NCBI RefSeq assembly: GCF_001638985.1
Contig: NW_017265161.1
Coordinates: 545,544-609,543 of the forward strand
Origin: Phycomyces blakesleeanus NRRL 1555(-)
Lineage: Eukaryota > Mucoromycota > Mucoromycetes > Mucorales > Phycomycetaceae
Direction of reading: 5' to 3'
DNA length: 64,000 nucleotides
The position numbers and the translations under genes were made by a program. Below the pieces are notes generated by a model, which saw only the letters and a program-made list of their open reading frames with translations, was not told where the DNA came from and searched no databases. Every line of letters begins with the position of its first letter. Position 1 is the first letter of the stretch. This document shows, one piece after another, positions 1,942 to 56,509 of this stretch.

Positions 1942-4900
1942 ATGTCCTCTACTTCTGAACTTTATAATAAGAAGTGCTATTGCACAAAATGCAGCGATAA
2001 TCAACAAGGCTACAGCTTTGTTTCTACACGAACCCTCCAGTGTCACAATAAAAGAGCAAGATATGAAGACATGGAAAGAAGTGAAAGAAGTATGTTTTGT
2101 TTTTCATTTTCATTTTCATTTTGGTTATTTTATATAATGTTTTATTTCAATAGATGTATCTGTTCAAAGAAATCTCATGGATATTGATTTTGAAAGTAAG
2201 AAATGTTAATTGTGATAAAAAGAGAAGTAAACTAAAAATTGAATTCTATATGTAGCTACATCAAACCAACAAACCGGACCCATAGAAGCAATGAACGGTC
2301 AGACCAACTCGCCTGTTTGGGAAGGAGCCCCAATTTCTGACGATGAGGTTGCTTTTAGCAATGAGTCGAATGGCGAAAGCAGTGATGGTGATGAAAATGA
2401 CAATGACGAAGAAAGCAATGGCGGTGAAGAAAGTGAAGACAATGAAGAGAATATTGTTGAGATTGAAGTCAAAGAATTCGATACTGAAGGTCAGTCCGTG
2501 TTAATTAACTAATAAAAAAAGACCCAAAAAAAATTCAAGGAAAAGAACCAAAAAAGAAAAATCTGAAAAAAGGGGGGGTGTTAATTTTTTTTGTTTTTTT
2601 TTACAATAGATCCTTTTGCCACCCCAAATATGCCTGAAAATCCGGTACACAGGTTCATTGCTACTTTTGTGGTAATGTTTGCTTCCCGCTATGTGGTCAA
2701 TAAGGGCGCTGTTGTGTTGATCGAATTCATCAACAAGCTCTTGTCGATTTACGAGCAGGATTTCCAATTGCCCGTGAGTCTTTCTGGTCTCCAAAGCATG
2801 ACAGGATTCTCAGCCATGACAAAAGGGATTAAGAGATTTGTTGTTTGTCAGGATTGCCACAAGGTGTATGAGGAAAGTGTACCTGCTCCTTTGAATTGTG
2901 ATTTCGTAAAGCTTGGTGCACATACCGCCTGTAATTGCAAATTAATGGTCCAATCATTTTCTGGTGGTTTGGTCGCAAAGAAGTCTTATGTATATCAGTC
3001 TCTCACACGTGCTCTTAAAATTCTTTTCCTCCGTCCCGATTTCGAGCAAAAGATCATGCACTGGAACCAAGAATTCAAGATCACTGATACATTGTGTGAT
3101 GTTTACGATGGTGAAGCCTGGACTGATTTGAAGGACAATGACAATGAAATTTTTGTTGAGCATCCTCGTTCATTGATGCTGACATTAAACATCGACTGGT
3201 TCCAGCCTTTCAATGGTACTAGCTATTCCTGCGGTGCTATCTACCTGGTGATTAACAACCTGCCTAGAAGTGAGCGGTTTAAAGCAGAAAATACAATCCT
3301 TGTTGGCCTCATGCCCGGACCAAAAGAGCCAAAATCAGAAGAGATCAATCATTATCTCAAGCCATTAGTCGATGAAATGATACAGCTCTATCTTGGAATA
3401 CAGATACCCACCTACCAGCAAACAGATGGTGCAACAGTTCGTGCAGCCTTATTGATGGTTGCATGCGATATACCTGCTGCCAGAAAGACTAGTGGGTTCA
3501 CCACGCACAACAGCACATGCGCCTGTTACAAATGCGACAATCAATTTTCTTGTCTAACAGGCACTTCTTCTATCGATTTCCGTGGATTTGATTGTGACCA
3601 GTGGCGCCATCGAAGTGATAGAGCAAACCATGTGCATGCTGAGGAGTGGAATAGTGCGAGTACACCCTCAGAAAGGCAGCAGCTGGAGGTCGAATATGGT
3701 GTTCGATGGTCGCAGTTGTATCGCCTTGGATACTTTGATCTAGTACGTGGAACAATCATTGATCCCATGCATAATCTTTTTCTGGGAACACCAAAGAGAA
3801 TGATTGAAACATGGACAACAATGAAAAACAATGAAAAACAATGATCTGCTTGCAATGCAGACAGTTGCAGCAATGATGATATTGCCCAGCGACTATACCA
3901 AGCTAAAACCGAAGATAGGAAAGGGCTTTTCCCACATGAAAGCAGATGAGTGGAAGTCTTGGGTATTGGTGTACTCTCCCATGCTTCTAAAACCAGTTCT
4001 TCCATCCAATATGTTCAATGGCTGGATGCACTATGTAAAAGCATGCCGTATACTTGTAAAGCCGTCAATCAGTTTCATCGAAATAGACCAAGCACACAGA
4101 TATCTACAAGAATTCTGTCAATCTTGTGAAGATACATATGAACCAAAAGTCCTCACCTGCAACATGCACCTGCACCTCCATCTTCATGACACAATTCGTG
4201 ATTTTGGACCTGTGTATGGCTATTGGCTCTTTGGTTTTGAGAGATACAATGGTTTGTTAAAGAATAATAAGACAAACAGAAAAGACGGGTTTGAAACAAC
4301 CTATATGACAAAATTCACTGCAGATGCATACAAAGCTGATTACGTACGAAATACGTTATCATGTCCAAGCCTCATTCCATTCCTTCCTCTTTTCGAAAAA
4401 CTTACCTCTACGACCGCACCTATAACGACCTATGCCACTTATGCTCCAACCAACCAACAACCTTTCCGACTGCAACAATTTGTAGACTCATCCTTAAGTC
4501 GAGCAGCACCTATCAAAGGCAATGAACCACTCCCCCCATCCACCTTTCCTTTACAGTCCTTAAAAGAATCAACAATGAGTGATATTGATTATCCTCAATT
4601 GTTAGATTATTATAAAATCGCCTATGCCATGCCCAATCTCATTTCTTACCACGATGCCAGATTGTCACAATAATTTGTAAATAACCGAATCACAAAATTG
4701 AAATCAATTGATCTCCTTGGCCAAACATATATTGGGAACAACAGTTCTGGTAAGTGCGGGTCACTCGTTCAAGCTTTCTTCCGTAGCAGCAATGGCCGAA
4801 CTTCAAGCCTATATACCGGACAAATTCAGTATCTTTTTATATATTCATTTACTCTGCCTCCTCATCCAAACCACCGAGCATCAACATTACATCAAGACCA

Positions 4901-17496: not shown

Positions 17497-17568
17497 CTCT
17501 CCGACCGGGAATTGAACCCGGGTCTCCCGCGTGACAGGCGGGGATACTTACCACTATACTATCGAAGA
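17497..17568 (-). tRNA. tRNA-Asp (GTC)
   Basis: Minus-strand cloverleaf: acceptor TCTTCGA pairs with TCGGAGA (one G-T), anticodon loop CTGTCAC gives GTC, T-arm GGGTTCAATTCCC serves as B box. A box TAGTATAGTGG. No intron and no encoded CCA. It decodes Asp GAY codons. The A box lacks CTCAG, and no LINE is inserted here. Confidence 0.95.
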
Positions 17569-21209: not shown

Positions 21210-21242
21210 CAATCCAGAACAAAAACAAAACGTTAGTGTTGC

Positions 21243-21316
21243 TGCCCACTACAGGGGTCGAACCTGTGACCTTGGCGTTATTAGCACCACGCTCTAACCA
21301 ACTGAGCTAAGCGGGC
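21243..21316 (-). tRNA. tRNA-Ile (AAT)
   Basis: Acceptor GCCCGCT pairs with AGTGGGC, anticodon loop CTAATAA gives AAT, T-arm CAGGTTCGACCCCTG. A box TTAGCTCAGTTGG. No intron and no CCA. LINE insertion lies directly at its 5' end, yet the gene and its internal promoter boxes are complete. Confidence 0.95.
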
Positions 21317-21317
21317 A
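21302..21317. repeat. LINE target duplication, tRNA-side copy
   Basis: CTGAGCTAAGCGGGCA, i.e. tRNA-Ile positions 15 to -1. Repeated at 26115-26130 after the LINE. Confidence 0.9.
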
Positions 21318-21552
21318 CTGCTCTTTCACTTAAGCATTTATTTATCTAGTTCCAAAATTTTATTTTTGACGAATCCACATATAAAGTGTATCCATCCATC
21401 AACATCTTTACGCAAAACGATCCATCCATCACGAAAAACGTACCTCCCATTGCCAAAAGTAATGCAGTCCTTGTCCTTGGTATCCCAGCTGTCAGCAAAA
21501 AAAAATTTCAGCTCAATCAGACAACATCACGCCATCTGCATTCTCAATCCCA

Positions 21553-22459
21553 ATGGCCAATTTGCAAATCGGCAACATGCAGGGATTGCCAACTGAGCTT
21601 ACCTCATTCCTGACAACATTGCAGGCACAAATCATGAATGTGCAAAACAGAACCGACCAGTTGGAGCGACTTGCAGCAGAGAATGCAAGATTAACCACTG
21701 AATTGGATCAAGCTAGAACAACAATTGCTAATCTGCAGAAGCAATTAGGATTCCAGAGTGCACCTGAAAAAAAACTTTTCACAAATTTCACTTTCGAACC
21801 CAGCCAGCGCAGTAGGTGCTCCTGACAAAAACAAAGAACCAGGTCTGGAAGCCTCCACTTGGGCTAGTAAAGCCAGTGTTTCTCTTTCTGTAACTGCATC
21901 AAAAATGTCTGCTGTTCCCTCTGCTCGCCATATTGCAGCTTCTGTTCGTATGTTTGCTCTTCCTTCTGGTCCTTCAGGTTATGAATATGTTTATATTCCA
22001 AGATCAAGACGCCTTAAGCACAAAGAAGTCCGTTCCTCTCTCCGCACTCTTGGGGTAGATTCTTCTCGACTTTTGGACATTAACTTCCCAGCCAGAGGTG
22101 TCATTGGCATCCTTGTTCATGTCCAGTATGCTGATACATTTAAGGCCAAACTGACAACTGCTTCTGTTGAGATTTTGGACGCATTTGATCCACTTGATCC
22201 TGATAATGTTGCTGATTCTAAGTATGCATCTCTGTACACTCATGAACTTGCCAACACTGCTGCCATGCTTCACCATGATAGATGTCTCCAAGCCCTACAG
22301 TTCTTGCGCCCACACGTTGCTATCCCAGTTGGTCACTTCTTTTTTGAGGAAGGGTGGATCAGTGAAGATGAAATACCAACACGTACTACTCTTACCAATG
22401 CTACTGGCGGGTCTTTGTTCAAATGTCAGCGCAGCTCATCAGTCACTATGTCTGAATGA
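21553..22459 (+). pseudogene. LINE L1a ORF1 (coiled-coil nucleic-acid-binding type), frameshifted
   Basis: Starts MANLQIGNMQGLPTELTSFL, followed by a leucine-rich heptad region (RTDQLERLAAENARLTTELD), a likely coiled coil for trimer formation. Then comes a globular part with YEYVYIPRSRRLKHKEVRSS and FPARGVIGILVHVQY. Eight A residues near 21766-21774, against seven in the copy at 39687, shift the frame by one, so the intact product would need correction or slippage. The last codons MSE-TGA overlap the ORF2 start (ATGA, 22456-22459). Known: LINE ORF1 proteins package the RNA. The start at 21553 is chosen because the homologous ATG exists in both copies and upstream frames differ. Confidence 0.75.
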
Positions 22460-25400
22460 GTAATCTCAATATCGGATTATGGAATGCCAATGGCCTGCAA
22501 CCCAGAGCCATTCAAGATACCCTTCAACACTGTCAGTCCTTACATATGCTCTTCATTACAGAAACATGGCTTCTCTCTCCCTCACATCTTCCCACATCAT
22601 GGTCACAAATTCACTTGTATGGGTCTCCTGTAGCTGGCACCTATAGGGGCTCTATGGGTGTTTCTGTTCTCATATCATCTCACTGTCCTTATGCCGTCAC
22701 TCAAATACCTATGCCCTCCAAATATGCTCTGGCTGTCAAAATTGGCTCACTCAGAATTGTATGCTTATATCTTCCACCAAATATGCCCACTCATGATGTC
22801 CTACATGTACTCTCTTCCATTCCTTTAACACATGATACCATTCTTTGTGGAGACTTCAATGCAAGACTTGGCTCTGTTACTGGTGACTATGCATCAAATT
22901 CTCATGGACTGGCACTATGTTCTTGGATAGAAGAGAGATCTCTATCAGTTGTAAATGCAGATCTTGCACCTTGCATACCAACATATATTTCTTTCCGCAA
23001 CAATTATGAAATCAGCAGTATTATTGACCTCTTTATAACTAATATGCCACTCATCAATCCTTCTCTTCATATTGCTACTGACTTGTCTCTTGGATCAGAT
23101 CATTGCCTTTTATCACTTTCCTTTACCTATGATCTACAGCACTCTACCAATATGCCACCACCATTACGCAAGACATGGAACCTCTCACGCCTCAATGAAC
23201 CTGATGTCCATGCTCTTTATGCTCATACCTTCAATCAAAACTCGACCTCCCTCCTTTCCACCTTGCAAGACATTGTACAGAATCCACCACTCACTAGACC
23301 CAACATTGATGCTATCACTGATGAGTTCAATTCACTCATTTATGACTCATTAAATAGCTCAATTGGACATCGACCCTCTCGCCCAAATCATTGGAAATCC
23401 TTCTGGAATGCAGCTTTGCAAACAGCAGCAGATCGTCGTAACCAATGTTACAAAAAATGGCGCCTAGCAATAGGTATTGACAAAGTTGTTTGGTGGACTA
23501 AACACAAGCATGCACAGGCCGAATTCCGATCTCAGGTTCAGCAAGCAAAACGTCAGTCTTGGCATGTCTTTTGTCAGTCTATGGAACGTGACTTCAGCAA
23601 AGCAACATCAAAGATAAAGCAGTTAAAACGCCGTAGACAGCCGCAACATACTTTCCAGCATGATGATGGACCAGCCGTAGCAGCAGCAACAATGTGTGAC
23701 TATTTGGCAACAGTATATAGTGGACATATACTTCCAGCAACCCGACCACCAGCACCAATGACCACTTGTAACAGTGTGCCTTTTGCCTCTGATGACTCTC
23801 CCTTTACCTCACCAATTGTAGAGGAATTCATGCAATTTATGCCTAACCGCAAGGCACCAGGACCAGACCATATCAGAGCTGAAATGCTAAAACCTGTAAA
23901 AACATATGTCTCACTCATTCTTACTTTATTATTTACAGTTTGCTGGCAATGGTCATATGTTCCAAGTTTGTGGCGCCAAGCCCAGGTCTTCCCAATCTTC
24001 AAGAAGGGTAGTCCAACTGACCCGGCAAACTACCGACCAATCTCCTTGACTTCTGTACTGCGTAAGCTTTTTGAGATGTGTATAGCCCCCCAGTTACACA
24101 AGTACTCTCCTCCTTTGGATGTGGCTCAAGGTGGTTTTCGTCCTCGCCGTGGTGCTTTGGATCAAGCTCTCTGTCTCCATGATCTGATGAAAGCCTATTA
24201 TCACCATCATAAGCACTACCCTGTTGTTGCATTTCTGGATATCAAGGCTGCCTATGATACAGTAGATCGACGAATCATCTGGCACGCTTCACAACAACGT
24301 GGCACTCCACCAGCCCTTTTGGGCCTCTTAGTTAACATGTTTGACAATGTCTCCATCTCTGTCCTTCTGGATAACTTTTCTTCACACTCGTTCTCACCTG
24401 CCACTGGGGTTCTCCAAGGTTCTGTCCTCAGTCCACATCTGTATTCAATATATATCAACTCCCTGCCCCCATTGCTCTGCACAGTTGCTCACTCACAAAC
24501 TACAACCCATGTTCCATCACCCTCTCCTACCTCATTGGATGCATATAATGCTCTTCTTGCTCCTTCAGGTGTAGATGGCTTTGGACATATTCATTTCTCA
24601 ACACCCATCAATTCTCTGCTCTTTGCCGACGATGTAGCTATTTTTGGTTCTCTTTCAGACGTTCAGGCCATGCTAGACCTTGCTGCAGACCACTCTTTTA
24701 CTCTTGGATATCGATGGAGCCCCACCAAATGTGAAGTTATATATCCCAAAACACGTGCAAGCTCGCCAGTTTCTCTTCTTTTATATGGTCAAGTTCTCCC
24801 TGCCACTGACCTGTTTATTTATCTGGGTGTTCCTTTTGCCAATAAGGGTATTTCTTCCAAGTCCATTGCCACTCATAGACGTTCTGGTACACTTGCTACA
24901 ATGGCAACCCTAAACTCTGTTGGTGCTTGTTGTTCTGGTTTTTCTCTGCTGCTCAGTTCACGATTGTATAAGACCTTTGTCCGCCCAAAGTTTGAATATG
25001 GTTTGGCAATCTCCACTCTACTGAAACAAGATATCAAAGTGCTGGAGTCCATTCAAGATAAGTGTCTTTGCATGATTGTTGGGGGGCATGCCACGTCCTC
25101 TACAATTGTGTTAAAGCACATCTGCAATCTGCCAAGTATGAAGTTTCGTGCCGATGCTCTTATGGCCAAGTTCTGTATAAGATCACGCTTTTTGCCAGCC
25201 CAGTGCCTTCTGTCTCTTTTGCACCATCATCATACTGTCTATTCTTCACTTGTCTCCTTGGGAAAAACCCATCTTCTGTCCAATCTCCCTCCAACACTCA
25301 AACTTCGAAGCCCTAGTGCTGTAAAAAATCATTTTGAAAGCATTAGAGAAGCTGGATTTGCAACCTTTCTCCAGTCCAATACGCAAGTTCTCATTCAAGC

Positions 25401-25779
25401 ATGCCGCCCAGTTCTTGGAGTTGATCCAATCTTGTTTTTGCCAGCCTCACGTGTGGAACGTAGCCATTTGATTCGTTGGAGAATGGGGCAGTTACCAGGC
25501 AAACCAAAGGAATGTCCTTGTGGATCAGATCACACCTCACGCCGCCATTTGTTGGATTGCCCACTTGTTCCTATGGCACTATTTGAACAGTTGCCTCAAC
25601 CTGACCAAGATCAGATAAACAGAATTGATTTTGCCATCACATCCTTGCCTTTGTCATCTCAAGAACCGCGACCTGCTTACTGGATACCACTGCTGACTAT
25701 TCTCTGGCACATAGATGTTATATGTAATCCTGATGGTGACTATTCACATGAGACTGAACATGGTGCTCTTTGGATATAA
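22456..25779 (+). CDS. LINE L1a ORF2: AP endonuclease and reverse transcriptase
   Basis: 1107 codons, open throughout. The N-terminal APE-type endonuclease (about 1-235) has LWNANGLQ, FITETWL, GDFNARLGS, IDLFIT and LGSDHCLL, the expected Asn, Glu, Asp-Asn and Ser-Asp-His catalytic landmarks. The reverse transcriptase (about 460-760) has KAPGPDHI, FPIFKKGSPTDPANYRPISL, GFRPRRG, FLDIKAAYDTVDR, GVLQGSVLSPHLY and the catalytic LLFADDVAIFG. The C-terminus has a zinc knuckle, CPCGSDHTSRRHLLDCP. No RNase H is seen. It should nick the tRNA gene and prime reverse transcription there. The start overlaps the ORF1 stop as ATGA, implying coupled termination-reinitiation. Confidence 0.95.
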   Translation: MSNLNIGLWNANGLQPRAIQDTLQHCQSLHMLFITETWLLSPSHLPTSWSQIHLYGSPVAGTYRGSMGVSVLISSHCPYAVTQIPMPSKYALAVKIGSLRIVCLYLPPNMPTHDVLHVLSSIPLTHDTILCGDFNARLGSVTGDYASNSHGLALCSWIEERSLSVVNADLAPCIPTYISFRNNYEISSIIDLFITNMPLINPSLHIATDLSLGSDHCLLSLSFTYDLQHSTNMPPPLRKTWNLSRLNEPDVHALYAHTFNQNSTSLLSTLQDIVQNPPLTRPNIDAITDEFNSLIYDSLNSSIGHRPSRPNHWKSFWNAALQTAADRRNQCYKKWRLAIGIDKVVWWTKHKHAQAEFRSQVQQAKRQSWHVFCQSMERDFSKATSKIKQLKRRRQPQHTFQHDDGPAVAAATMCDYLATVYSGHILPATRPPAPMTTCNSVPFASDDSPFTSPIVEEFMQFMPNRKAPGPDHIRAEMLKPVKTYVSLILTLLFTVCWQWSYVPSLWRQAQVFPIFKKGSPTDPANYRPISLTSVLRKLFEMCIAPQLHKYSPPLDVAQGGFRPRRGALDQALCLHDLMKAYYHHHKHYPVVAFLDIKAAYDTVDRRIIWHASQQRGTPPALLGLLVNMFDNVSISVLLDNFSSHSFSPATGVLQGSVLSPHLYSIYINSLPPLLCTVAHSQTTTHVPSPSPTSLDAYNALLAPSGVDGFGHIHFSTPINSLLFADDVAIFGSLSDVQAMLDLAADHSFTLGYRWSPTKCEVIYPKTRASSPVSLLLYGQVLPATDLFIYLGVPFANKGISSKSIATHRRSGTLATMATLNSVGACCSGFSLLLSSRLYKTFVRPKFEYGLAISTLLKQDIKVLESIQDKCLCMIVGGHATSSTIVLKHICNLPSMKFRADALMAKFCIRSRFLPAQCLLSLLHHHHTVYSSLVSLGKTHLLSNLPPTLKLRSPSAVKNHFESIREAGFATFLQSNTQVLIQACRPVLGVDPILFLPASRVERSHLIRWRMGQLPGKPKECPCGSDHTSRRHLLDCPLVPMALFEQLPQPDQDQINRIDFAITSLPLSSQEPRPAYWIPLLTILWHIDVICNPDGDYSHETEHGALWI

Positions 25780-26114
25780 TTTAGACTTTTTCTTTTCTTT
25801 CATAGCTCTTCACTTTTCATTGTTCTTTACTCCCTTTATCTCTCTTCTTTCTCTTTTGTCCTTTGCTGTCTGAAAAGTTCTTTGTTCTGCAATTCTGTCT
25901 CCTCCCTTTCACTGTTACAACTATTTTCACAGCTGCAAAGTGGAGAGCAGATTCAGCCATTGAAGCTAGTAAGATTTGATCTTCTTTTTCCCCTCTCTTT
26001 TTTTTGTCTTTTGTGATCTCTTGAGACTTTTTTATATATTCTTTTTATACTTTGGAGGCTATATGATCTATAGATCGCCAGCATTATCTCCTTTAATAAA
26101 ATATAATCTTTAAC
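25780..26114 (+). other. LINE L1a 3' untranslated region
   Basis: Pyrimidine-rich, with CTGCAAAGTGGAGAGCAG and GGAGGCTATATGATCTATAG, both repeated in the copy ending at 39670. Presumably the template recognised by the reverse transcriptase. Confidence 0.7.
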
Positions 26115-26130
26115 CTGAGCTAAGCGGGCA
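26115..26130. repeat. LINE target duplication, distal copy (tRNA-Ile)
   Basis: CTGAGCTAAGCGGGCA, identical to 21302-21317. It is also the left flank of the next LINE, as expected if the new LINE inserted between the tRNA and an older one. Confidence 0.9.
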
Positions 26131-26377
26131 GTTCTCTTTCACATAAGCTTTACTTTTTTAAATTTTGGGTTTTTCAAAGTTTATATCCATACAATTCTAT
26201 CATCAATCCATCCAAAATATTGCTTCAACCATTGCATCCATTGTCAAACACGATGTATCTACCCTTCTCACCACCGCATCCATTGTCAAAAAAATTTTTC
26301 CTATCATTCCTGCCATTTTATCACCAATTTTCACTTTTTCTCTGCTGATTGCTGCCCTCTCAAGATCATCGCCAAAC

Positions 26378-27256
26378 ATGTTGCAATTGTTGCCTGCTAA
26401 TTGCATGCAAAGTCTGCCAGCCAAACTTGTGACGTTTTTAACCAGTATGCAGTCACAGTTCAATGCACTTAACAAATGTACAGCACATTTGGAATCTTTT
26501 GCTGTCAAAAATGTCCAACTACATGCTCAATTAGCTAATGTCTGGCAGGAGAATGCCAATCTCTGATCTCAATTGTTGCAAAACAATGTGACTGGTTCTG
26601 TTCCCAGCTCTGCTTCTCTTCCTGCACCCCAGTCAACTGCAGATCTTAGAACTGCAGCCTCCACTTGGGCCACCAAAACAAGCTTGATTCTGCCAGCCAA
26701 GACACCTCGAGTTCCTTCTGCCCACCAGGTTGCTGCCTCTCAAAGACTGTTCTCTGACAAAACTGGTCCTGATGGTTTTAAATATGTTTATATTCCTCGC
26801 TCACGTTGTATTACACACGGTGAAGTGTGCCGCTCTCTCCGCACTCTTGGTGTTGACACCAGTCACCTGTTATATATTAACTTTTCTGCTTGTGGAGTTA
26901 TTAGAATTCTTGTTCATGTGCAGTATCTTGAGGAATTTAATTCCCAATTAGCTAGTGCTAAGGTCTCTCTTGTCAACAACTTTGATCCACTTGACCCTAA
27001 AAATGTTGCTGATCCCAAGTTTGCCAACTTGTCTGTCTCTGGTCTTGAAACCCAGGCTTTGGCTCTCCAAAATGCCCGCTGTATCCAAGCTCTCAAGTTT
27101 TTGCGTTCTCACTTAGTTCTGCCAGTTGCTCACTTCTTTGTCCAGTCAGAATGGATTGGACTTGAGGAAATTCCTGCCCGACCAGTAGCTGAGCACTTTG
27201 GTGATGCTCCAAACAAAAAACGTGCCCTTGATGCTCTCACTGCTATGATTGAATGA
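26378..27256 (+). pseudogene. LINE L1b ORF1, degraded
   Basis: MLQLLPANCMQSLPAKLVTF matches the L1a ORF1 N-terminus and keeps the coiled coil. One TGA at 26564-26566, probably from CGA, interrupts it. The same frame continues through FKYVYIPRSRCITHGEVCRS and EEFNSQLASAKVSLVNNFDP to an ATGA overlap with ORF2. Confidence 0.75.
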
Positions 27257-28806
27257 GTGACCTTTCAATAGGATTGTGGAATGCTAATGGACTTCAACCT
27301 TGTGCAATTAAAGACGTGCTCAACCACTGTCAATCTCTTCATATGCTTTTTATAACGGAAACATGGCTCTTATCCCCAGCCTGTCTTCCAACCTCATGGT
27401 CTCAGTTTCATCTCTATGGATCTCCTGTTGCTGGCAACTACCGTGGATCAATGGGGGTGTCATTGTTAGTCTCTCCTTTCTGTCCTTATGCTGTCACACA
27501 AATACCTATGCCCAACAACTATGCTCTTGCTGTCAAGATTGGTATCCTTCGACTTATATGCCTTTACTTACCACCCTCTATGCCCACTCATGAAGCTCTT
27601 GATATCCTCTCAGCCATTCCTTTAACTGATGATACCATTATATGTGGAGATTTTAATGCACGCCTTGGTTCAGTAACTGGTGACTATGCATCTAACCCTT
27701 GTGGTATAGCTTTAGAGCAATGGCTTGAAGAATGATCTTTAACTGTCCTCAATGGAGCTCTCTCACCATGCACACCTACATACATTTCCTTTTGTAACGA
27801 AGTTGAAATCAGCAGCATCATTGATCTTTTCATCACCAACACCAACTTCACTAACCCTTCTTTACACATTGCAACCGAACTATCTTTAGGCTCTGATCAC
27901 TGACTTCTCTCACTTTCCTTTACTTATGACCTGCAACACTCACCACCAGCACCTCCACCTATGCACCAAACTTGGAATCTGTCACATCTTTATGAAGATA
28001 ATGTCAGATCATTATATGTCACTACCTTTGTCACCAAATCCACCTCCCTTCTCACCACACTGCAAGACCTTGTTCAGAATCCGCCAACTATATGTCCACC
28101 CATTGATGCTCTTACTAACTCTTTTAATATACTCATTTATGACTCTCTTAGTAGCTCGATTGGTTCTTGCTCCCCTAGCCCCTCACATTGGAAATTGTAT
28201 TGGACCCCTGTATTGCAAGCTGCAGCCGACCATAGAGATGGTTATTACAAGCAATGGCGTCAAGCTTGTGGCATTGACAAGATCAATTGGTGGAGCTGGC
28301 ACCAGCATGCACACAAGGAGTTTCGTCAGCAAGTTCAGACAGCAAAGCATTTGTCTTGGCATGCTTTTTGCCACTCAATGAACTTGGATTTCAACAAGGC
28401 CACGTCCAAGATAAAGCAGTTGAAACAGCGCAGGCAACCACAGCACTCATTTCAGCATGATGATGGCCCAGCAGTTGCGACAACAGTTATGTGTGACCAT
28501 CTCGCATCAGCCTATAGTGGACACATACTTCCTGACATTCGACCTTCACCACCACTACTCAACACCTCTCTCATGCCTTTTTCCTCTGTTGACTCGCTAT
28601 TCACCTCACCAGTGGTGGAGACCTGTATACAATTTATGCCTAACTGCAAGGCGCTGGGTTCTGACCACATCCATGCAGAAATGCTAAAGCCCATTTGGTC
28701 TCACATCTCACTTCTTCTTGCCTGTCTTTTTACTATTTGCTGGCAATGGTCATACACCCCTTCTCTCTGGTGCAATGCCCAAGTGTTTCCAATCTTTAAG
28801 AAGGGA
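27253..28806 (+). pseudogene. LINE L1b ORF2, degraded and truncated
   Basis: Endonuclease with LWNANGLQ, FITETWLL and GDFNARLGSVTGDY. Stops at 27733-27735 (L1a has Arg) and at 27901-27903 in the SDHxLLSL motif. The reverse-transcriptase start is present up to WCNAQVFPIFKKG, then CACTA B interrupts it. The catalytic FADD is absent. Confidence 0.85.
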
Positions 28807-38920: not shown

Positions 38921-38970
38921 ATAATAATATTATAACAAAATAATACTTCTTTTCAAAAAAAACTACTTAT

Positions 38971-39043
38971 TGCCTTCTGCCAGAATTGAACTGGCGACCT
39001 TCTGCTTACTAGGCAGACGCTCTGCCAACTGAGCCAAGAAGGC
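38971..39043 (-). tRNA. tRNA-Thr (AGT)
   Basis: Acceptor GCCTTCT pairs with AGAAGGC perfectly, anticodon loop CTAGTAA gives AGT, T-arm CCAGTTCAATTCTGG. A box TTGGCTCAGTTGG. No intron and no CCA. LINE copies are inserted at its 5' end. Confidence 0.95.
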
Positions 39044-39044
39044 A
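39029..39044. repeat. LINE target duplication, tRNA-side copy (tRNA-Thr)
   Basis: CTGAGCCAAGAAGGCA, tRNA positions 15 to -1. Repeated at 39671-39686. Confidence 0.9.
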
Positions 39045-39670
39045 TGGTTGCCAGGCAAACCAAAAAAATGTCCTTGTGGATCAAATCACACCTCACGCCG
39101 CCATTTGTTGAATTGCCCACTTGTTCCTGCAACACTATTTGAACAGTTGCCTCAATCTGACCATGACCAGATACACAGAATTGATTTTGCCATCACATCC
39201 TTACCTTTGTCATCTCAAGAACCGCGACCTGCATACTGGATACCACTGATGACTATTCTCTGGCACATGGATGTTATATGTAATCCTGATGGTGACTATT
39301 CACATGAGACTGAACATGGTGCTCTTTGGATATAATTTAGAATTTTTCTTTTCTTTCATAGCTCTCCACTTTTCATTGTTCTTTACTCTCTTTATCTCTC
39401 TTCTATCTCTTTTGTTCTTTGCTGTCTGAAAAGTTCTTTGTTCTGCAATTCTGTCTCCTCCCTTTCACTGTTACAACTATTTTCACAGCTGCAAAGTGGA
39501 GAGCAGGTTCAGCCATTGAAGCTAGTATGATTTGATCTTCTCTTTTCCCTCTCTTTTTTTTGTCTTTTGTGATCCCTTGGGACTTTTTTATATCTTTTTT
39601 TTGTACTTTGGAGGCTATATGATCTATAGATCGCCAGCAATATCTCCTTTAATAAAATATAATCTTTAAC
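39045..39670 (+). mobile_element. 5'-truncated LINE copy L2a at tRNA-Thr
   Basis: 626 bp starting in the ORF2 C-terminus (CCAGGCAAACC; zinc knuckle CPCGSNHTSRRHLLNCP) and running to the standard 3' end AATCTTTAAC. Flanked by the 16-bp tRNA duplication. 5' truncation is typical of incomplete target-primed reverse transcription. Over 90% identical to the end of L1a. Confidence 0.93.
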
Positions 39671-39686
39671 CTGAGCCAAGAAGGCA
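39671..39686. repeat. LINE target duplication, distal copy (tRNA-Thr)
   Basis: CTGAGCCAAGAAGGCA, identical to 39029-39044. Left flank of the next LINE. Confidence 0.9.
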
Positions 39687-39920
39687 AGGCTCTTTCGCTT
39701 AAGCATTTTATTTGCCTGGTTCCACAATTTTATTTTTGACGAATCCACATATAAAGTGTATCCATCCATCAACATCTTTACGCAAAATGATCCATCCATC
39801 ACGAAAAACATACCCCCATTGCCAAAAGTAGTGCAGTCCTTGTCCTTGGTATCTCAGCTGTCAGCAAAAAAAAATTCAGCTCAATCAGACAACATCATGC
39901 CATCTGCATTCTCAATCCCA

Positions 39921-40826
39921 ATGGCCAATTTGCAAATCGGCAACATGCAGGGATTACCAACCGAGCTTACCTCATTCCTGACGACATTGCAGGCACAAAT
40001 CATGAATGTGCAAAACAGAACCGACCAGTTGGAGCGACTTGCAGCAGAGAATGCAAGACTAACCACTGAATTAGACTATGCTAGAACAACAATTGCTAAT
40101 CTGCAGAAGCAATTAGGATCTCAGAGTGCACCTGAAAAAAACTTTTCAGAAATTTCACTTTCGAACTCAGCCGGCGTGGTAGATCCTCATATCAACAACA
40201 AAGAATCAGGTCTGGAAGCCTCCACTTGGGCTAGTAAAGCCAGTGTTTCTCTTCCTGCAATTGCACCAAAAGTGCCTACTGTTCCCTCTGCTCGCCGAAT
40301 TGCAGCTTCTGTCCGTATGTTTGCTCTTCCCTCTGGTCCTTCGGGTTATGAATATGTTTATATTCCAAGATCAAGACGCCTTAAGCACAAAGAAGTCCGT
40401 TCCTCTCTCCGCACTCTTGGTGTGGATTCTTCTCGACTTTTGGACATTAACTTCCCAGCCAGAGGTGTCATTGGCATCCTTGTTCATGTCCAGTATGCTG
40501 ATACATTTAAGGCCAAACTGACAACTGCTTCCGTTGAGATTTTGGACGCATTTGATCCACTTGACCCTGATAATGTTGCTGATCCCAAGTATGCATCTCT
40601 GTCCACTCATGAACTTGCCAACACTGCTGCCATGCTTCACTATGATAGATGTCTTCAGGCCCTCCAGTTCTTGCGCCCTCATGTTGCTATCCCAGTTGGT
40701 CACTTCTTTTGTGAGGAAGGGTGGATCAGTGAAGATGAAATACCCACATGCATCACTCTTACCAATGCCACTGGTGGGTCATTGTTCAAATGTCAGTGCA
40801 GCTCATCAGTCACTATGTCTGAATGA
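39921..40826 (+). CDS. LINE L2b ORF1, intact
   Basis: Open from MANLQIGNMQGLPTELTSFL to MSE-TGA (302 codons; the frame also stays open upstream to 39756). Coiled coil at about residues 30-75 (RTDQLERLAAENARLTTELD). Then a Ser/Ala-rich linker and a conserved domain (GYEYVYIPRSRRLKHKEVRS, ARGVIGILVHVQYADTFKAK) probably for RNA binding. Ends by ATGA overlap with ORF2. It serves as reference for the frameshift in the L1a copy. Confidence 0.8.
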   Translation: MANLQIGNMQGLPTELTSFLTTLQAQIMNVQNRTDQLERLAAENARLTTELDYARTTIANLQKQLGSQSAPEKNFSEISLSNSAGVVDPHINNKESGLEASTWASKASVSLPAIAPKVPTVPSARRIAASVRMFALPSGPSGYEYVYIPRSRRLKHKEVRSSLRTLGVDSSRLLDINFPARGVIGILVHVQYADTFKAKLTTASVEILDAFDPLDPDNVADPKYASLSTHELANTAAMLHYDRCLQALQFLRPHVAIPVGHFFCEEGWISEDEIPTCITLTNATGGSLFKCQCSSSVTMSE

Positions 40827-43734
40827 GTAATCTCAATATCGGATTATGGAATGCCAATGGCCTGCAACCCAGAGCCATTCATGATACCCTTCAACACTGT
40901 CAATCCTTACATATGCTCTTCATTACAGAAACATGGCTTCTCTCTCCCTCACATCTTCCCACATCATGGTCACAAATCCACTTGTATGGTTCTCCTGTAG
41001 CTGGCACCTATAGGGGCTCTATGGGTGTTTCTGTTCTCATATCACCTCACTGTCCTTATGCTGTCACTCAAATACCTATGCCCTCCAAATATGCTCTGGC
41101 TGTCAAAATTGGCTCACTCAGAATTGTATGCTTATATCTTCCACCAAATATGCCCACTCATGATGTCCTACATGTACTCTCTTCCATTCCTTTAACACAT
41201 GATACCATTCTTTGTGGAGACTTCAATGCAAGACTTGGCTCTGTTACTGGTGACTATGCATCAAATTCTCGTGGACTGGCACTATGTTCTTGGATAGAAG
41301 AGAGATCTCTATCAGTTGTAAATGCAGATCTTGCACCTTGCATACCAACATATATTTCTTTCCGCAACAATTATGAAATCAGCAGTATTATTGACCTCTT
41401 TATAACTAATATGCCACTCATCAATCCTTCTCTTCATATTGCTACTGACTTGTCTCTTGGATCAGATCATTGCCTTTTATCACTTTCCTTTACCTATGAT
41501 CTACAGCACTCTACCAATATGCCACCACCATTACGCAAGACATGGAACCTCTCACGCCTTAATGAACCTGATGTCCATGCTCTTTATGCTCATACCTTCA
41601 ATCAAAACTCGACCTCCCTACTTTCTACCTTGCAAGACATTGTACAGAATCCACCACTCACTAGACCCAACATTGATGCTATCACTGATGAGTTCAATTC
41701 ACTCATTTATGACTCATTAAATAGCTCAATTGGACATCGACCCTCTCGCCCAAATCATTGGAAATCCTTCTGGAATGTAGCTTTGCAAACAGCAGCAGAT
41801 CGTCGTAACCAATGTTACAAAAAATGGCGCCTAGCAATAGGTATTGACAAAGTTGTTTGGTGGACTAAACACAAGCATGCACAGGCCGAATTCCAATCTC
41901 ACGTCCAGCAAGCAAAACGTCAGTCTTGGCATGTCTTTTGTCAGTCTATGGAACGTGACTTCAGCAAAGCAACATCAAAGATAAAGCAGTTAAAACGCCG
42001 TAGACAGCCACAACATACTTTCCAGCATAATAATGGACCAGCCGTAGCAGCAGCAACAATGTGTGACTATTTGGCAACAGTATATAGTGGACATATACTT
42101 CCAGCAACCCGACCACCAGCACCAATGACCACTTGTAACAGTGTGCCTTTTGCCTCTGATGACTCTCCATTTAACTCATCAATTGTGGAGGAATTCATGC
42201 AATTTATGCCTAACCGCAAAGCACCAGGGCCTGATCATATCAGAGCTGAAATACTAAAACCTATCAAATCACTTATCTCATCTGTTCTTGCTTTGTTATT
42301 TACAGTTTGCTGGCAATGGTCATATGTCCCAAGTCTTTGGCGCCAAGCACAAGTTTTCCCCATATTCAAGAAGGGTAGTCCAACAGACCCAGCTAACTAC
42401 TGGCCAATCTCCTTGACTTCTGTACTGCGTAAGCTTTTTGAAATGTGTATAGCCCCCCAGTTGCACAAGTACTCTCCTCCATTAGATGTGGCTCAAGGTG
42501 GTTTTCGTCCTTGCTGTGATGCTTTGGATCAAGTTCTCTGTCTCCATGATCTGATGAAAGCCTATTATCACCATCATAAGCACTATCCTGTTGTTGCATT
42601 TCTAGATATTAAGGCTGTCTATGATACAGTAGATCAACGAATCATCTGGCATGCTTTACAATAACGTTGCACTCTGCCGGCCCTTTTGGGTCTCTTTATT
42701 AACATGTTTAACAATGTCTTTATCTCTGTCCTTCTGGATAACTTTTCTTCACACTCGTTCTCACCTGCCACTGGGGCTCTCCAAGATTCTGTCCTCAGTC
42801 TACATCTTTATTCAATATATATCAACTCTCTGCCCCCATTGCTCTGCACAGTTACCCAATCCCACACTACAACACATGTTCCATCACTCTCTCCTACCTC
42901 ATTGGATGCATATAATGCTCTTCTTGCTCCTTCAAGTGTGGATGGCTTTGAACATATTCATTTCTCAACACCCATCAATTCTCTGCTCTTTGCCGACGAT
43001 GTAGCTATTTTTGGTTCTCTTTCAGACGTTCAGGCCATGCTAGACCTTGCTGCAGACCACTCTCTTACTCTTGGATATCGATGGAGCCCCACCAAATGTG
43101 AAGTTATATATCCCAAAACACGTGCAAGCTTGCCAGTTCCTCTTCTTCTATATGGTCAAGTTCTCTCTGCCACTGACCAGTTCATTTATCTGGGTGTTCC
43201 TTTTGCCAATAAGGGCATTTCTTCCAAGTCTATTACCACTCATAGACGTTCTGGTACACTTGCTACAATGGCAACCCTAAACTCTGTTGGTGCTTGTTGT
43301 TCTGCTTTTTCTCTGCTACTCAGTTCACGACTGTATAAGACTTTTGTTTGCCCAAAGTTTGAATATGGTGTAGCTATTTTCACTCTGCTGAAGCAAGATA
43401 TTAAAGTTCTGGAGTCCATTCAAGATAAGTGTCTTCGCATGATTGTTGGGGGGCATGCCACGTCCTCCACAATTGTGTTAAAGCATATCTGCAATCTACC
43501 AAGTATGAAGTTCCGTGCCAATGCTCTTATTAGCAAGTTCTGTATAAGATCACGCTTTTTGCCAGCCCAGTGCCTCCTGTCTCTTTTGCACCATCATCAT
43601 ATTATCTACTCTTCACTAGTCTCCTTGAGAAAAACTCATCTTCTGTCCAATCTCCCTCCAACACTCAAACTTCGAAGCCCTAGTTCCATAAAAAATCATT
43701 TTGAAAGCATTAGAGAAGCTGGATTTGCAATCTT
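40823..43734 (+). pseudogene. LINE L2b ORF2, one nonsense codon and lost 3' end
   Basis: Same domains as L1a ORF2. A TAA at 42662-42664 replaces the CAA (Gln) of L1a, and the same frame then continues through LLFADDVAIFG to FAIF, where CACTA F begins. Other losses: GGFRPCC for GFRPRR and LQDSVLS for LQGSVLS in conserved reverse-transcriptase motifs. The zinc knuckle is missing. Confidence 0.9.
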
Positions 43735-45190
43735 CACTGCAAAATGAGGGTGGATTTGGTCGAATTTTATTTTTTGAATTTTGGTAAAATTTGGAAAAAT
43801 ATTTCAAACACCATCATTTTTCAATATATTTTTTTCTTGAGATGTGAATTCGCAATTTTTTTTGATTATATTAAACAAACACAGATACAAACATAAATAT
43901 TTATTAATTAGGCAATAAATCACACAATTGTCTTAAAAAATATATGTTTCGATTGACTTGGCAGAAAAATAAAAAATAAAAATAAAATATTAAATGCTAA
44001 ATGTAGTATTTAATTATTTTTCTGGAAGGAAAAACTTGTTGTTACAGATACACCTAATTTAGATTCAATAATATTTTTATTACATCACAAAAAATACCGA
44101 TTTCTTTTAGAATATAATAAGTTACAATATATGACTTATTTTTAATAAGAAAGTATATCAAAAAAAATTGAAAAAAAAGCAAGAATTGATGTCATAAAAA
44201 AATACAAGAAAAAGAAAATCCAAAACAGACCACTTGCCAAAATGAGCGAGAATTGATGTCATGTTAAAAAAACGCAAAAGAGAAAAACTACGCCATTATA
44301 TCAGTGATTATTAAATTGAAACCCCATTAATAATCAGGCACACTTTTTTTAAGAAAAGATTGCTATATCAAAATCCATTTGTAATTCTTACTAATAGGAA
44401 TAGTAAGCTCAATGCAGTCAATGAAATAGTGAATAAGATATATCAACTCATTATTAATGACAAAAATAAAAGACATATAAAAGATAAAAACAAAATATAG
44501 TATACACTTCTTTATTATTTTATTATTATTAATATTATTCTTACTGTTATGAATTCTACAACTAAAATCTACACTGTTATATGTACATGTTCATCATGTA
44601 CCAAAAATGCAATTGGTGGAATTTTGCAAAATGCACAGACCTTTAAGCGTCATAACGATGCTAATAAGTTATTAGACATTGGCTCAAAAAATCGAGGTAA
44701 ATGACATTTGAGTAGTATGCACATTACTGGATAAATTGTAATCTGATATTCTTTTTCTGTTAATTATCAGTTAATACAGAAGTTGTCAAATAAGAAACAC
44801 ACATTGAGATGGGAGATGTATCTGATACATTGATTGACTGTAAGTATAAAATGTATTTTTAATAAATCATAATTTAGATAGCTAATAGTCTGTTTCTACT
44901 ATAGATGAAGACAATTATTCTATTATATCAGCCGAAACTACTGTACAGAGTGTATCTTTTTTGAGAGAAGACGAGATTTTTCAATTCGAAGAGTCTGATG
45001 TCAAGACAACATCATTGGCTTCTGACAATGGCAATCCTGATTCAAGCGATGAGTCTGAAGATGAGAGTGAAGTCGAGGTTGCTGGTGTTGAAAATTTTGG
45101 ACATAGTTGCTTCCAGTATGCATACATTTAAAAAAGAAATATACATAAATTGTGTTACAAATAATTAACAGAAATACTTGCCTTTGTAGT
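43735..45190 (+). mobile_element. CACTA copy F, 5' part only
   Basis: Starts CACTGCAAAATGAGGGTGG inside LINE L2b. 44036-45190 is nearly identical to 59595-60745 of copy E. It ends at LTR delta just before the main transposase exon. No right terminus found. Confidence 0.7.
44549..45175 (+). pseudogene. CACTA transposase N-terminal exons, copy F
   Basis: Exon 1 MNSTTKIYTVICTCSSCTKN with QTFKRHND (Cys/His motif), ending at a GTAAATG donor. Exon 2 from about 44772 has a TAA after TEVVK. The acidic exon 3 (44905-45110) encodes EESDVKTTSLASDN and SSDESEDESEVEVAGV. The catalytic exon is absent, replaced by LTR delta. A shift near ENFGHS distinguishes it from copy E. Confidence 0.7.
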
Positions 45191-50266: not shown

Positions 50267-50324
50267 AATTCAAACTCTCTATAGGAGAAAATAAGAGGCT
50301 TCCTCAAGTTGGCACATTAAAATG

Positions 50325-50395
50325 TGCGTCAACGGGGAATCGAACCCCGACCTTCAGCTTGGAAGGCTGAAATTCTACCATTGAACTATTAACGC
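50325..50395 (-). tRNA. tRNA-Gly (TCC)
   Basis: Acceptor GCGTTAA pairs with TTGACGC (one T-G), anticodon loop CTTCCAA gives TCC, T-arm CGGGGTTCGATTCCCCG. A box TAGTTCAATGG. No intron and no CCA. No LINE at its 5' end. Confidence 0.95.
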
Positions 50396-53605: not shown

Positions 53606-56509
53606 AACACTAATAATAATAAATGTGTAGCCCATGAAGACACATGCAATACAATTAGTAGTGCTGTTTCTGAGCCTGTAAATCAAGAGGAAGATAGTTT
53701 TGAATTTGAACAGGAAGATGTTGAAATCAATTCTGAGCTTAGAAGTAAGAAAACTTATTTTATTAAATTGATTTATTTGGGTCTAACATTCTGCTTTTGT
53801 AGACCTAAATGACACAAATGACATTTTAGATATACCGACAAGAAACTAACCTTTCTCTGAAACGGATTGCGTGTTTGGCCCTAAAGATAATGTCCAGTAT
53901 ACAAGTGACACTTACGAAGAAGAAGAAGAATATGAAGATAAATCCAATGTTGAGATGGACAATGATGAAGGTAGGTACACAGCTTTAGATAATATTATAT
54001 TCTAGAAAATAGAGAGTTAATCAACATTCTTTAAAAAAATCAAATTAAAGATTCTTCATTAGAATCAATCTCAGAATTGAATTTGATTCACTGATTCATT
54101 ATTATTTTGGTTGCTCTTTTTGTCTCACTATATGTTGTGGATGAAAAATCTGTAAACCTGATTCCCATAATCAACAAGATCCTGCAGTTTTTGTTTGACT
54201 CATTCCACCTTCCTGTGAGTGTTGCTGGCCTCAAACGTTTGGCCAGATTTGAAGCGTTAACAAGTGGTGTCAAGAAGTATATTGCATATAGCAAATGCCA
54301 TGCCATATATGATAATGAAGCCGCCCCTTTGCATTGTACATTACCCAATTTTGGTAAAACCTCCTTGTGTGGCAACTACTTGTTCAAGTCTGGTCCCAGA
54401 TCAAAAGCACCCAAAAAGACATATGTATTTCACTCTGTTAAGAAAGCCTTAAAGACGTTTTTTCAATGCCCAGATTTTGAAAACAAGATCAACTCATGGA
54501 ACCGCAGCCCAAAAATGTATAGCACTTTGTTTGACATATATAATGGTGCGATGTGGAATGAGATAGTAGATGTAGATGTTATATCTTTTGTTGATACCAA
54601 GCAATCACTTATGCACATGCTGAATATTGACTGGTTTCAGCCATTCGATGATGTTACCTACTCCTGTGGTGCCATATATCTTGCAATCAACAATATTCCA
54701 CACAGTGAGCAGTTCAAGAAGGAGAACATGATTCTTGTTAGGTTAATGTCAGGGCTTAAAGAAGCGAGCACTTCTGACATAAATAATTATCTGAAATCAT
54801 TTGTGGATGAGTTGATGGAGCTGTACAAAGGTATTAAGATTAAGACTCACCAATGTCCAAATGGTACTTCTATCAAAGCAGCCCTTCTCATAGTTGCCTG
54901 TGATATACCTGCTGCAAGGAAAGTATGTGGGTTCACATCCCATACAAGTACAAATGCATGCCACAAGTGTAAGTGTCAATTTTTGAGATTGGCTGAAACG
55001 AGTTCCATTGATTATTCTGGATTCAATTTCTCAAAGTGGCTCCTTTGCACTAAAAATGACAATTGTAAGAATGCAGAGATCTAGAGAAATGCAACCAAAC
55101 CAGCTGAGAGACAGCGTCTTGAAGTTGCACATGATGTTTGCTGGTCCAAACTGCATTGTCTTCAGTACTTTGATATTGTCTGCTGCACAATCATCGATCC
55201 CATGCACAATCTATTCTTAGGCACTACCAAAAGAATGCTGGAGAGATGAGTTGCGGATGGATTAATTGACAATAAAAAACTTGTTGCCATGCAAAAGGCT
55301 GATGAGAAGGTAGTGTTGCCACCTGATTACATATTACTTGGGACAAAGATTGCCAAGAAATTTCCCTATATGAAGGCTGATGAGTGGAAGTCTGGGTGCC
55401 TTGTATACTCTTCTGTAGTTCTAAGGGATGTGTTGTTATTGTCAGAGTTCAATAACTGGATAGAGTTTGTTAATGCATGTAGATACTTCACCAAGCCTAG
55501 TGTTTCCAAAGAAGACATTGAGAAAGGACACAAATGCTTAGAAGAATTCTGTAAAGGGTGTGAGACATTGTACGACCTGGACCTTCTCTCTCCTAATATG
55601 CACTTGCATCTGCACTTACACCAAACAATGATTGAATTTGGACCCATCTATGGCTATTAGCTTTTCAGCTTTGAAAGGTACAATAGTGTCCTGAAAAATA
55701 TCAAGACCAATCGAAGAAATAGGTTTGAACTGACATTTATGAGACAGTTCATTGAAGAGTCATGGAAGAGAGATTTTGTTTGTCCACTTCTGAAACCTAT
55801 GCATGCACTTGCATGTTTTGAAATTTTTGATAAGTTTACTATCAACAACAACAACACCTACCTCTTCCACTCTTTCTCAATTTCTGAATATCTTGAAGCT
55901 TCATGGGATCTTTCAATGACAATTCATGGAAAGGAGCCCCTGCCATTGAAAACAAAACCATTATCATTTATGCCAAAACATGAATATGATTGTCTTGTAA
56001 GATACTATCAAGCTGCATACAAGAATTAACAGATCTCAGGTTGCAAAGATGTAATTGATAACTCATCTTTTGTCAATGACTGAATCGAAATGGTGAAGTC
56101 CATTGATCTTCTTGGGCAAAGCTACAAAGGGTGCATTGGAACGAATAGCCACGGATCATACATACAATCATATTTCACTGAACGAACTGGGTCAGAACAT
56201 GTGTATGTTGGAGAGATTCAATACCTTTTCATTCACAATTTTAGGCCAACTGTTTCTTCTCTAACATACAGAAATTCCCATAGTAGTCAGCATGTATTTG
56301 CATTTGTCAAATGGTTCAAATCCACTTCTGACAAAACAAGAGAATTAGAAGGAGTTGAGTTGTTACAGAATGAATTCTATAAGCAAGGTTTTCAAAGCAT
56401 TCTGCTTGTACATCGGATTCTCCTAACAGTTGCAATAGTAGATTATAAAACTACAAAAAACGTTAACAAAAAACTTGCAATTCCTTTACCAAAAAAAATT
56501 TACTATTAA
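53340..56509 (+). pseudogene. tnp2-type (CACTA) transposase, copy D
   Basis: Exon 1 MASIRKPTVRKECQCSICKS with TFKHHQ. Acidic exons lie between 53630 and 53970. The catalytic exon starts from about 54053: FVSLYVVDEKSVNLIPIINK, LNIDWFQPFDDVTYSCGAIY (Asp 1), VACDIPAARKVCGF (Asp 2), NACHKCKCQF, a TAG after NAEI (55082), DPMHNLFLGTTK, a TGA at MLER (55247), MHLHLHLHQTMIEFGPIYGY, a TAG (55658), FSFERYNSVLKNI (Glu). Then a TAA at 56027, and the C-terminal block HVFAFVKWF to PLPKKIYY. All catalytic acids are present. Four stops, three of them TGG to TAG or TGA. It has the clearest C-terminus of the family. Confidence 0.85.
53515..53605. repeat. Microsatellites TTTTA and AAT in the first intron of copy D
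   Basis: A TTTTA pentamer run (about 53518-53545) and an AAT/AATA trinucleotide run (about 53570-53603). Confidence 0.9.

Follow-up and report, generated by a model that had tools for sequence, protein, structure and literature searches.

A LINE of Phycomyces blakesleeanus that very probably uses the A box of several tRNA genes as its target site

The DNA analysed here (the window) is a 64-kb stretch of the Phycomyces blakesleeanus NRRL 1555(-) assembly (C28:545544-609543; the assembly has 53.5 Mb in 60 contigs). It contains a tRNA-Ile and a tRNA-Thr gene, both with copies of a long interspersed nuclear element (LINE) directly at their 5′ ends. The junctions of these copies, and of their relatives throughout the genome, make it very probable that a LINE of the APE (apurinic/apyrimidinic endonuclease) type uses the A box of tRNA genes as a site-specific target, a reading that draws on the sequence of one genome. 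The features of the two loci are as follows (ORF, open reading frame; RRM, RNA recognition motif).

21243..21316, minus strand: tRNA-Ile (anticodon AAT), target gene, intact, +1 at 21316 (ARAGORN 21241-21317; numbered by hand from the acceptor pairing)
21303..21316, plus strand: inner copy of the 14-bp duplication at tRNA-Ile (tRNA positions 14 to 1)
21317..26115, plus strand: LINE copy 1, full length, 4799 bp, A subfamily
21321..21335, plus strand: 5′-terminal 15-nt motif, CTCTTTCACTTAAGC in copy 1; after insertion it is the immediate upstream region of the tRNA gene
22456..25779, plus strand: ORF2 of copy 1, 1107 aa; its ATG overlaps the ORF1 stop codon (ATGA)
26095..26115, plus strand: 3′ tail AATAAAATATAATCTTTAACC, without poly(A); its final C occupies tRNA position 15
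26116..26129, plus strand: outer copy of the 14-bp duplication at tRNA-Ile
26130..28806 (end approximate), plus strand: LINE copy 2, on the outer side of copy 1, 5′ end present
38971..39043, minus strand: tRNA-Thr (anticodon AGT), second target gene in the window, intact (ARAGORN 38970-39044; numbered by hand)
39030..39043, plus strand: inner copy of the 14-bp duplication at tRNA-Thr
39044..39671, plus strand: LINE copy 3, 5′-truncated, last ~0.63 kb only, same 3′ end
39672..39685, plus strand: outer copy of the 14-bp duplication at tRNA-Thr
39686..43735, plus strand: LINE copy 4, outside copy 3; it has its 5′ end but lacks the 3′ end
39897..40826, plus strand: ORF1 of copy 4, likely ATG at 39897, with a putative coiled coil and a putative RRM-like domain

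LINE copy 1 is 96-98% identical to copies at tRNA-Thr and tRNA-Ala genes elsewhere in the genome. Copy 2 has 69% DNA identity to copy 1 over the aligned part, its 3′ part is gone near ORF2 residue 518, and it is an older insertion than copy 1. The span 21243-28806, which a previous interpretation made without database searches (the sequence-only reading) had given for its LINE, holds two elements, the inserted copy 1 (21317-26115) and the older, 3′-deleted copy 2 (26130 to ~28806). At the tRNA-Thr gene, copy 3 has 94.9% identity to the 3′ end of copy 1, and copy 4 has 94.9% identity to copy 1.

The sequence-only reading had described a 16-mer that is found both at the 5′ end of each tRNA gene and beyond the adjacent LINE, and had concluded that tRNA positions -1 to 15 are duplicated. 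The arrangement itself is as described: each of the two 16-mers has two exact occurrences in the window, at the places named for them, with chance expectations of 0.01 and 0.06 when two mismatches are allowed, and in the ARAGORN calls both tRNA genes are on the minus strand and start at the 16-mers. A duplication of 16 bp is literally true for these two cases, which have G at position 15 and A following +1. However, the tRNA-Ala genes speak against it at both ends. Matched with N allowed at position 15, 15 of 15 tRNA-Ala genes have A15, and T would thus be expected in the element sense if this base were duplicated. The Ala copies have C in 30 of 31 cases, G in one and T in none, showing that the base at position 15 belongs to the element. 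In the element sense, position -1 is T in two Ala genes that carry no element, whereas at 27 filled Ala junctions the 14-mer is followed by A 14 times, by C 7 times, by G 5 times and by T only once. These values place the duplication at tRNA genes at 14 bp, tRNA positions 1-14, with nicks at 14/15 on the tRNA-sense strand and at -1/+1. The 16-bp version was dropped on this evidence and is very improbable; the outer C (position 15) and the outer A (position -1) at tRNA-Ile and tRNA-Thr are element bases that agree with the tRNA by coincidence. The extent is constant at tRNA genes, as had been proposed, but one base shorter at each end, and the first nick, between positions 14 and 15, lies inside the A box, again as proposed.

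At the genome level, the pattern AATCTTTAACCTGAGC has 55 occurrences and the reversed pattern none. A tail-only pattern, AATAAAAN{0,3}TAATCTTTAA, which sets no condition on the downstream sequence, matches 72 places, compared with one for the control. Sixty-five of these flank-blind tails continue into a tRNA 14-mer, i.e. a sequence that differs at no more than three bases from tRNA positions 1-14 read as reverse complement. The match is exact in 49 of them and has one mismatch in 9, two in 5 and three in 2. The two bases between the tail pattern and the 14-mer are CC in 53 of the 65, TC in 10, and TG and AC in one each. The check suggested by the sequence-only reading, whether genomic 3′ ends run into tRNA 5′ ends, thus turned out in its favour, and the opposite outcome, most copies at non-tRNA sequence, was not observed.

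For comparison, a set of 77 tails was found mostly via patterns containing CTGAGC or in loci fetched for it, and is therefore biased to tRNA flanks, the 72 being the unbiased set. Left out of the 77 were three regex matches in unrelated sequence (C7:1630111, C28:578353 and C28:579481) as well as C3:622028, which is counted in the 72. Within three mismatches lie 71 of the 77 (54 exact, 10 with one, 5 with two and 2 with three; 6 have more than three), against 2 of 20,000 random 14-mers from the window (one exact, one with three mismatches). The nearest tRNA types are Ala (31), Thr (18), Ile (8), a CCGG type (8), Lys (3) and a GCCGCAA type (3), so that six different tRNA 14-mers are used as target. 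The Lys-type gene is called as tRNA-Lys(CTT) and the GCCGCAA-type gene as tRNA-Phe(GAA); the CCGG-type gene is called only with introns allowed, as Asn(GTT), and may, judged by eye, be an intron-bearing tRNA-Tyr. The association is directional: of the 94 tRNA genes of the census described below, 29 have a tail at most 6 kb away upstream, and one has a tail at that distance on the mirrored side.

Some sequences that resemble LINE ends were rejected. Tandem repeats containing TTTAACCTGAGCC (C20:1600-2050, with a spacing of 72 bp; similar ones at C18:2150, C7:315-323 kb and C4:577 kb) are probably unrelated to the LINE and were not taken as its ends; C7 carries further copies of this repeat, 3,614 bp apart. 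Single TTTAACCTGAGCC matches on C11, on C15 and at C20:19900 lack the tail and thus are not LINE ends either.

The 5′ ends give a corresponding picture. When the 5′ end was used as a DNA query, 31 places matched. Fourteen of them lie directly beside a listed tRNA gene (at distance 1 in 13 cases and 2 in one), another 13 come after exactly one tail and one 14-mer, and for 4 neither holds; one of these 4, C1:78055, follows a variant tail. A scan of the fetched loci for the 15-nt motif yielded 57 matches, with the exact tRNA 14-mer on the left in 51, and of these motif-defined 5′ ends 17 lie at a tRNA gene, while 34 come after a tail. Between tRNA +1 and the element there are no extra nucleotides in 33 cases, one in 14, two in 3 and 12 in a single case, i.e. 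the 5′ end is 0-2 nt from the mature tRNA +1 in 50 of 51; a TRE5-like spacing of ~40-54 bp was not seen. The six matches without the exact 14-mer comprise two with degenerate tRNA 14-mers (C18, C46), three that by eye look like chance matches and one exception (C4:2966633, discussed below). The 15-nt motif is 80-87% alike between subfamilies, compared with only 27-30% for the next 60 nt (ungapped). Given its place directly upstream of the tRNA gene, the motif may have a role in transcribing the tRNA or in initiating the element RNA. Taken together, the 65 of 72 flank-blind 3′ ends and the 51 5′ ends beside an exact tRNA 14-mer uphold the claims that insertion is position-specific and that the tRNA is left complete.

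To what extent different tRNA genes are used was estimated with a pattern census. It comprises 81 TAGCTCA and 14 TGGCTCA sites, 94 of which were taken as tRNA genes (C5:2364376 was dropped as not tRNA-like by eye). Genes with a 5′ end within 3 nt, or with an antisense tail within 6 kb upstream, were counted as occupied, which is a proximity rule and not a proof for each gene. By this rule 33 of the 94 TRGCTCA tRNA genes are occupied. The fractions are highest for Ala (13/15) and Thr (8/13), followed by Ile (5/14), TAGCTCAGTTGGTAGAGC (3/10), TAGCTCAGCGG (1/5), the Lys class (2/22), TAGCTCAGCTGGG (1/11) and others (0/4). Occupancy is 29 of 55 for genes with A or T at position 16 and T at position 17, versus 4 of 39 for the others (p = 2e-5), a grouping that was made post hoc. 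In a sample of 33 tRNA genes that lack the motif, not one is occupied (RF00005 scored 63 of 2452 candidates).

A single element type evidently serves several tRNA species. Copies of the subfamily with the 5′ end ACTGCTCTTTC are 99.5% identical at tRNA-Thr and tRNA-Ala, showing that the shared A-box region is the target, and two other subfamilies, 65-68% identical to this one, use the same tRNA position. The 12-mer TRGCTCARNYGG occurs 280 times in the genome versus 122 times for the reversed sequence, and ~89 of the occurrences are tRNA genes, counted by class; yet only 2 of the 77 tails are followed by a non-tRNA 14-mer beginning TGAGC. A short sequence is thus read but is not enough, and recognition by short sequence alone was judged insufficient for this reason. 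The genomic evidence points to a sequence component of targeting (off-target use of CTCA^R, bases 16-17) in combination with a context component (non-tRNA 12-mers are rarely used).

The encoded proteins assign the LINE to a class. The N-terminus of ORF2 (~aa 1-226) is an APE-like endonuclease (Pfam PF14529, E 1.6e-12), and aa 516-792 are a reverse transcriptase (Pfam PF00078, E 3.7e-22). From residue ~801 onward the AlphaFold2 model (mean pLDDT 88) is almost wholly helical, and the C-terminus carries a Cys/His motif at aa ~1020-1035, found by eye in the translation, with C1020, C1022, H1031 and C1035 conserved. The domain order is thus APE, reverse transcriptase, zinc-finger-like, as in TRE5. 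In a structure search human L1 ORF2p was the top Foldseek match, while L1 and R2 were tied by VIA-align. The ORF1 model combines a long helix and an RRM-like fold, with weak fold matches only, none at E 0.001 or better. An APE-like endonuclease and a non-LTR (long terminal repeat) reverse transcriptase joined in one ORF define the LINE as an APE-type non-LTR retrotransposon, and the target duplication, constant 3′ end and 5′ truncation are the signature of target-primed reverse transcription. A restriction-like endonuclease C-terminal to the reverse transcriptase, as in the NeSL/LIN/R2 type, was not found, the endonuclease being APE-type and N-terminal. The element encodes an endonuclease and reverse transcriptase and not a DDE transposase of the Dada type, and it has no oligo(A) 3′ tail of the TRE5 type. 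For RNase H after the reverse transcriptase, no Pfam match was listed up to E 10, with filters that drop weak matches. Rhizopus, Mucor, Umbelopsis and other Mucoromycota have protein relatives; scans of genome-contig and viral-contig collections for relatives of the LINE found none.

The element lies in one orientation, antisense to the tRNA, and its 3′ end, ...TTTAAYC, is joined to tRNA position 14. Following the general model of target-primed reverse transcription, ORF2p would nick the tRNA-sense strand at TRGCTCA^R in the A box, and the 3′-OH of A14 would prime reverse transcription of an RNA ending ...UUUAACC. The opposite strand would be cut 14 bp away, at the -1/+1 border, and the whole tRNA would be restored and be reusable as target. 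The endonuclease itself would favour CTCA^R, with the tRNA context (RNA polymerase III (Pol III) factors or more of the tRNA-gene sequence) adding most of the selectivity.

As a complete tRNA is re-formed each time, repeated insertion at the same gene is possible. From the tRNA-Thr gene at C1:34671, six tails in the same orientation lie within 55 kb, all with the Thr 14-mer (the intervening stretches were seen in part). In 15 clusters assembled by hand, excluding the C46 cluster, divergence from the nearest relative is lower for the tRNA-proximal copy than for the most distant one in 11, higher in 2 and tied in 2 (p = 0.022), which agrees, by a rough measure, with growth of the clusters at the tRNA side. 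The same unusual junctions, GCACTGCTC and TTATTGTG, are found both at C24:876-887 kb and at C35:345-351 kb, suggesting segmental duplication of one cluster.

A number of observations do not fit an A-box target used with full precision and weigh against it. Seven of the 72 flank-blind tails have no recognised tRNA 5′ end downstream: C3:622028, which looks like a chance match, C4:2574740 and C3:2459980, which are very short copies at non-tRNA sequence, and C1:3190199, C9:822500, C44:139837 and C46:10225. The two very short copies are 5′-truncated and lie at non-tRNA CTCA sites, with 45 and 49 bp between their repeats, and ARAGORN with introns allowed found no tRNA at either. The repeat at C4:2574740 begins with TGAGCCATGTACAA and, if CA and one C on the other side are counted in, spans ~16-17 bp, with TGGCTCA^G as the nicked strand; at C3:2459980 it is TGAGTGTAGAACAG plus or minus one T, 14-15 bp, with CACTCA^A. 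CTCA^R is thus occasionally used outside tRNA genes, with repeats that are similar but not identical in length, and neither the tRNA context nor exactly 14 bp is absolute. Duplications of varying extent, which the sequence-only reading had named as evidence against itself, were seen only at these two off-target copies (~14-17 bp), the extent being constant at tRNA genes. Furthermore, a 5′ end of the C subfamily at C4:2966633 has no tRNA 14-mer alongside and is possibly a rearranged or off-target copy, and the age order within clusters is only moderately supported. A Thr 14-mer also occurs within an Ala-anchored cluster (C44:84083) and an Ala remnant in one Thr cluster (C1:62312), i.e. recombination or transduction also occurs. 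At C1:62312 the Thr 14-mer is followed by A plus GCTACATCCCC (tRNA-Ala positions 11 to 1) and then by an element 5′ end. The Ala stretch may derive from an RNA begun inside the tRNA-Ala gene upstream of the parent element, i.e. 5′ transduction during a jump from Ala to Thr; alternatives are template switching or recombination.

Specificity could also come mainly from protein tethering, with ORF1p or ORF2p binding TFIIIC or TFIIIB at active tRNA genes, a mechanism put forward for TRE5-A, and an endonuclease of little sequence preference. The rare use of non-tRNA occurrences of TRGCTCARNYGG described above is in line with this, and so is a TAGCTCAATTGG site within the LINE itself, use of which would leave TGAGCTATTTAATG, a sequence that is absent among the 77 tails. 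In the accessible text of the cited papers, moreover, TRE5-A requires the B box and its ORF1 protein binds TFIIIB (PMC5391098, PMC5911963). However, TRE5-A inserts within a window, 80% within 47 +/- 3 bp (PMC5391098, accessible part), whereas the junctions at the Phycomyces tRNA genes are base-exact, the sampled motif-less tRNA genes are unoccupied, and bases 16-17 track occupancy. The off-target copies at TGGCTCA^G and CACTCA^A, without an ARAGORN tRNA, argue that CTCA^R is read by itself, which slightly lowered our estimate for tethering; we regard it as rather unlikely. A passive association, in which a few units of tRNA plus LINE were amplified by segmental duplication or unequal exchange, would account for the shared junctions of the C24 and C35 clusters and for the frequent tandem arrangement of LINE copies. 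It would not account for six different tRNA 14-mers, for near-identical elements at different tRNAs (element identity without flank identity), for 5′-truncated copies that retain the 14-bp duplication (window 39044-39671 and a copy between C24:52320 and C24:52011), or for the two non-tRNA copies with direct repeats of their own, and it is extremely improbable.

Site-specific use of the A box may be extended by a more speculative and, in our estimate, doubtful idea, according to which a self-regenerating A-box occupant reuses its own 14-nt tRNA scar. A read-through RNA ending UGAGC... would pair with the nicked strand and guide priming at the next gene, and the conserved 5′ motif would replace the native upstream region and keep the tRNA transcribed. 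If this were true, the clusters would be a record of LINE subfamilies arriving in waves, one after another, and the system would also be that of related LINEs in Mucoromycota.

Elsewhere in the window, tRNA-Asp (17497-17568) and tRNA-Gly (50324-50395) have no matching LINE copy alongside, which fits a motif requirement. Two ORFs with a Transposase_21 / tnp2 domain are found at 2591-3844 and 54107-55084.

With a fungal APE-type LINE that enters tRNA genes of several kinds at the same base position without destroying them, one can test whether an APE endonuclease owes strict specificity to DNA sequence or to Pol III factors. The element is also a natural candidate for work on insertion into a multicopy target where it does no harm, and its clusters may allow waves of LINEs to be dated. 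We found no description of this site, tRNA range and fungal APE-type element in the open-access literature, to which our search was confined (Repbase and subscription journals lay outside it), and a database entry for the element may already exist.

The following comparisons refer to the accessible parts of the cited papers. A 2018 review lists TRE5, TRE3, NLTR-A and NLTR-B as non-LTR elements at tRNA genes and describes fungal target specificities as not fully elucidated (PMC5911963). Kojima and Jurka report NeSL/LIN elements specific for tRNA-Pro, -Arg and -Glu (PMC4640811), Dewa sits in a tRNA-Leu spacer (cited in PMC3706591), and the Rhizopus genome paper notes co-localisation with tRNA genes for Ty3-like elements (PMC2699053). 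The L1-type elements TRE5-A and TRE3 of Dictyostelium resemble the Phycomyces LINE in having an APE, a reverse transcriptase, a zinc-finger-like C-terminus, two ORFs and many tRNA genes as targets, as well as extra nucleotides at the 5′ junction and possible tandems with an older copy (PMC5391098, PMC5911963). In contrast to the base-exact A-box cut and the end without poly(A) of the Phycomyces LINE, TRE5 inserts ~40-54 bp upstream, within a window, and ends in oligo(A). NLTR-A of Dictyostelium purpureum also lies upstream, 2-6 bp from the mature tRNA, but it encodes RNase H, which was not seen in the Phycomyces LINE, and a tRNA-internal duplication is not described for it in the accessible part of that paper (PMC5006619).

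NeSL-1_TV (tRNA-Pro), LIN15_SM (tRNA-Arg), LIN25_SM (tRNA-Glu) and Dewa are likewise non-LTR elements of strict site specificity that lie within tRNA genes or next to them (PMC4640811, PMC3706591). NeSL and its relatives, however, are described there as having a restriction-like endonuclease, with one tRNA target per family, whereas the Phycomyces LINE is APE-type and uses several tRNAs per subfamily. Some families of Dada DNA transposons duplicate TAGCTC, nucleotides 8-13 within the A box (PMC3706591, PMC8869645), but these are DDE transposons that lie inside the tRNA and use unrelated machinery. The LTR elements Ty3, DGLT-A and Tj1 also insert just upstream of tRNA genes (PMC5006619, PMC5911963); they differ in being integrase-based and in inserting at or near the Pol III start site, ~10-15 bp upstream. 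The Phycomyces LINE is thus set apart from these systems by the combination of an APE endonuclease, a base-precise cut in the A box, a duplication that begins at +1 and the use of several tRNAs per subfamily.

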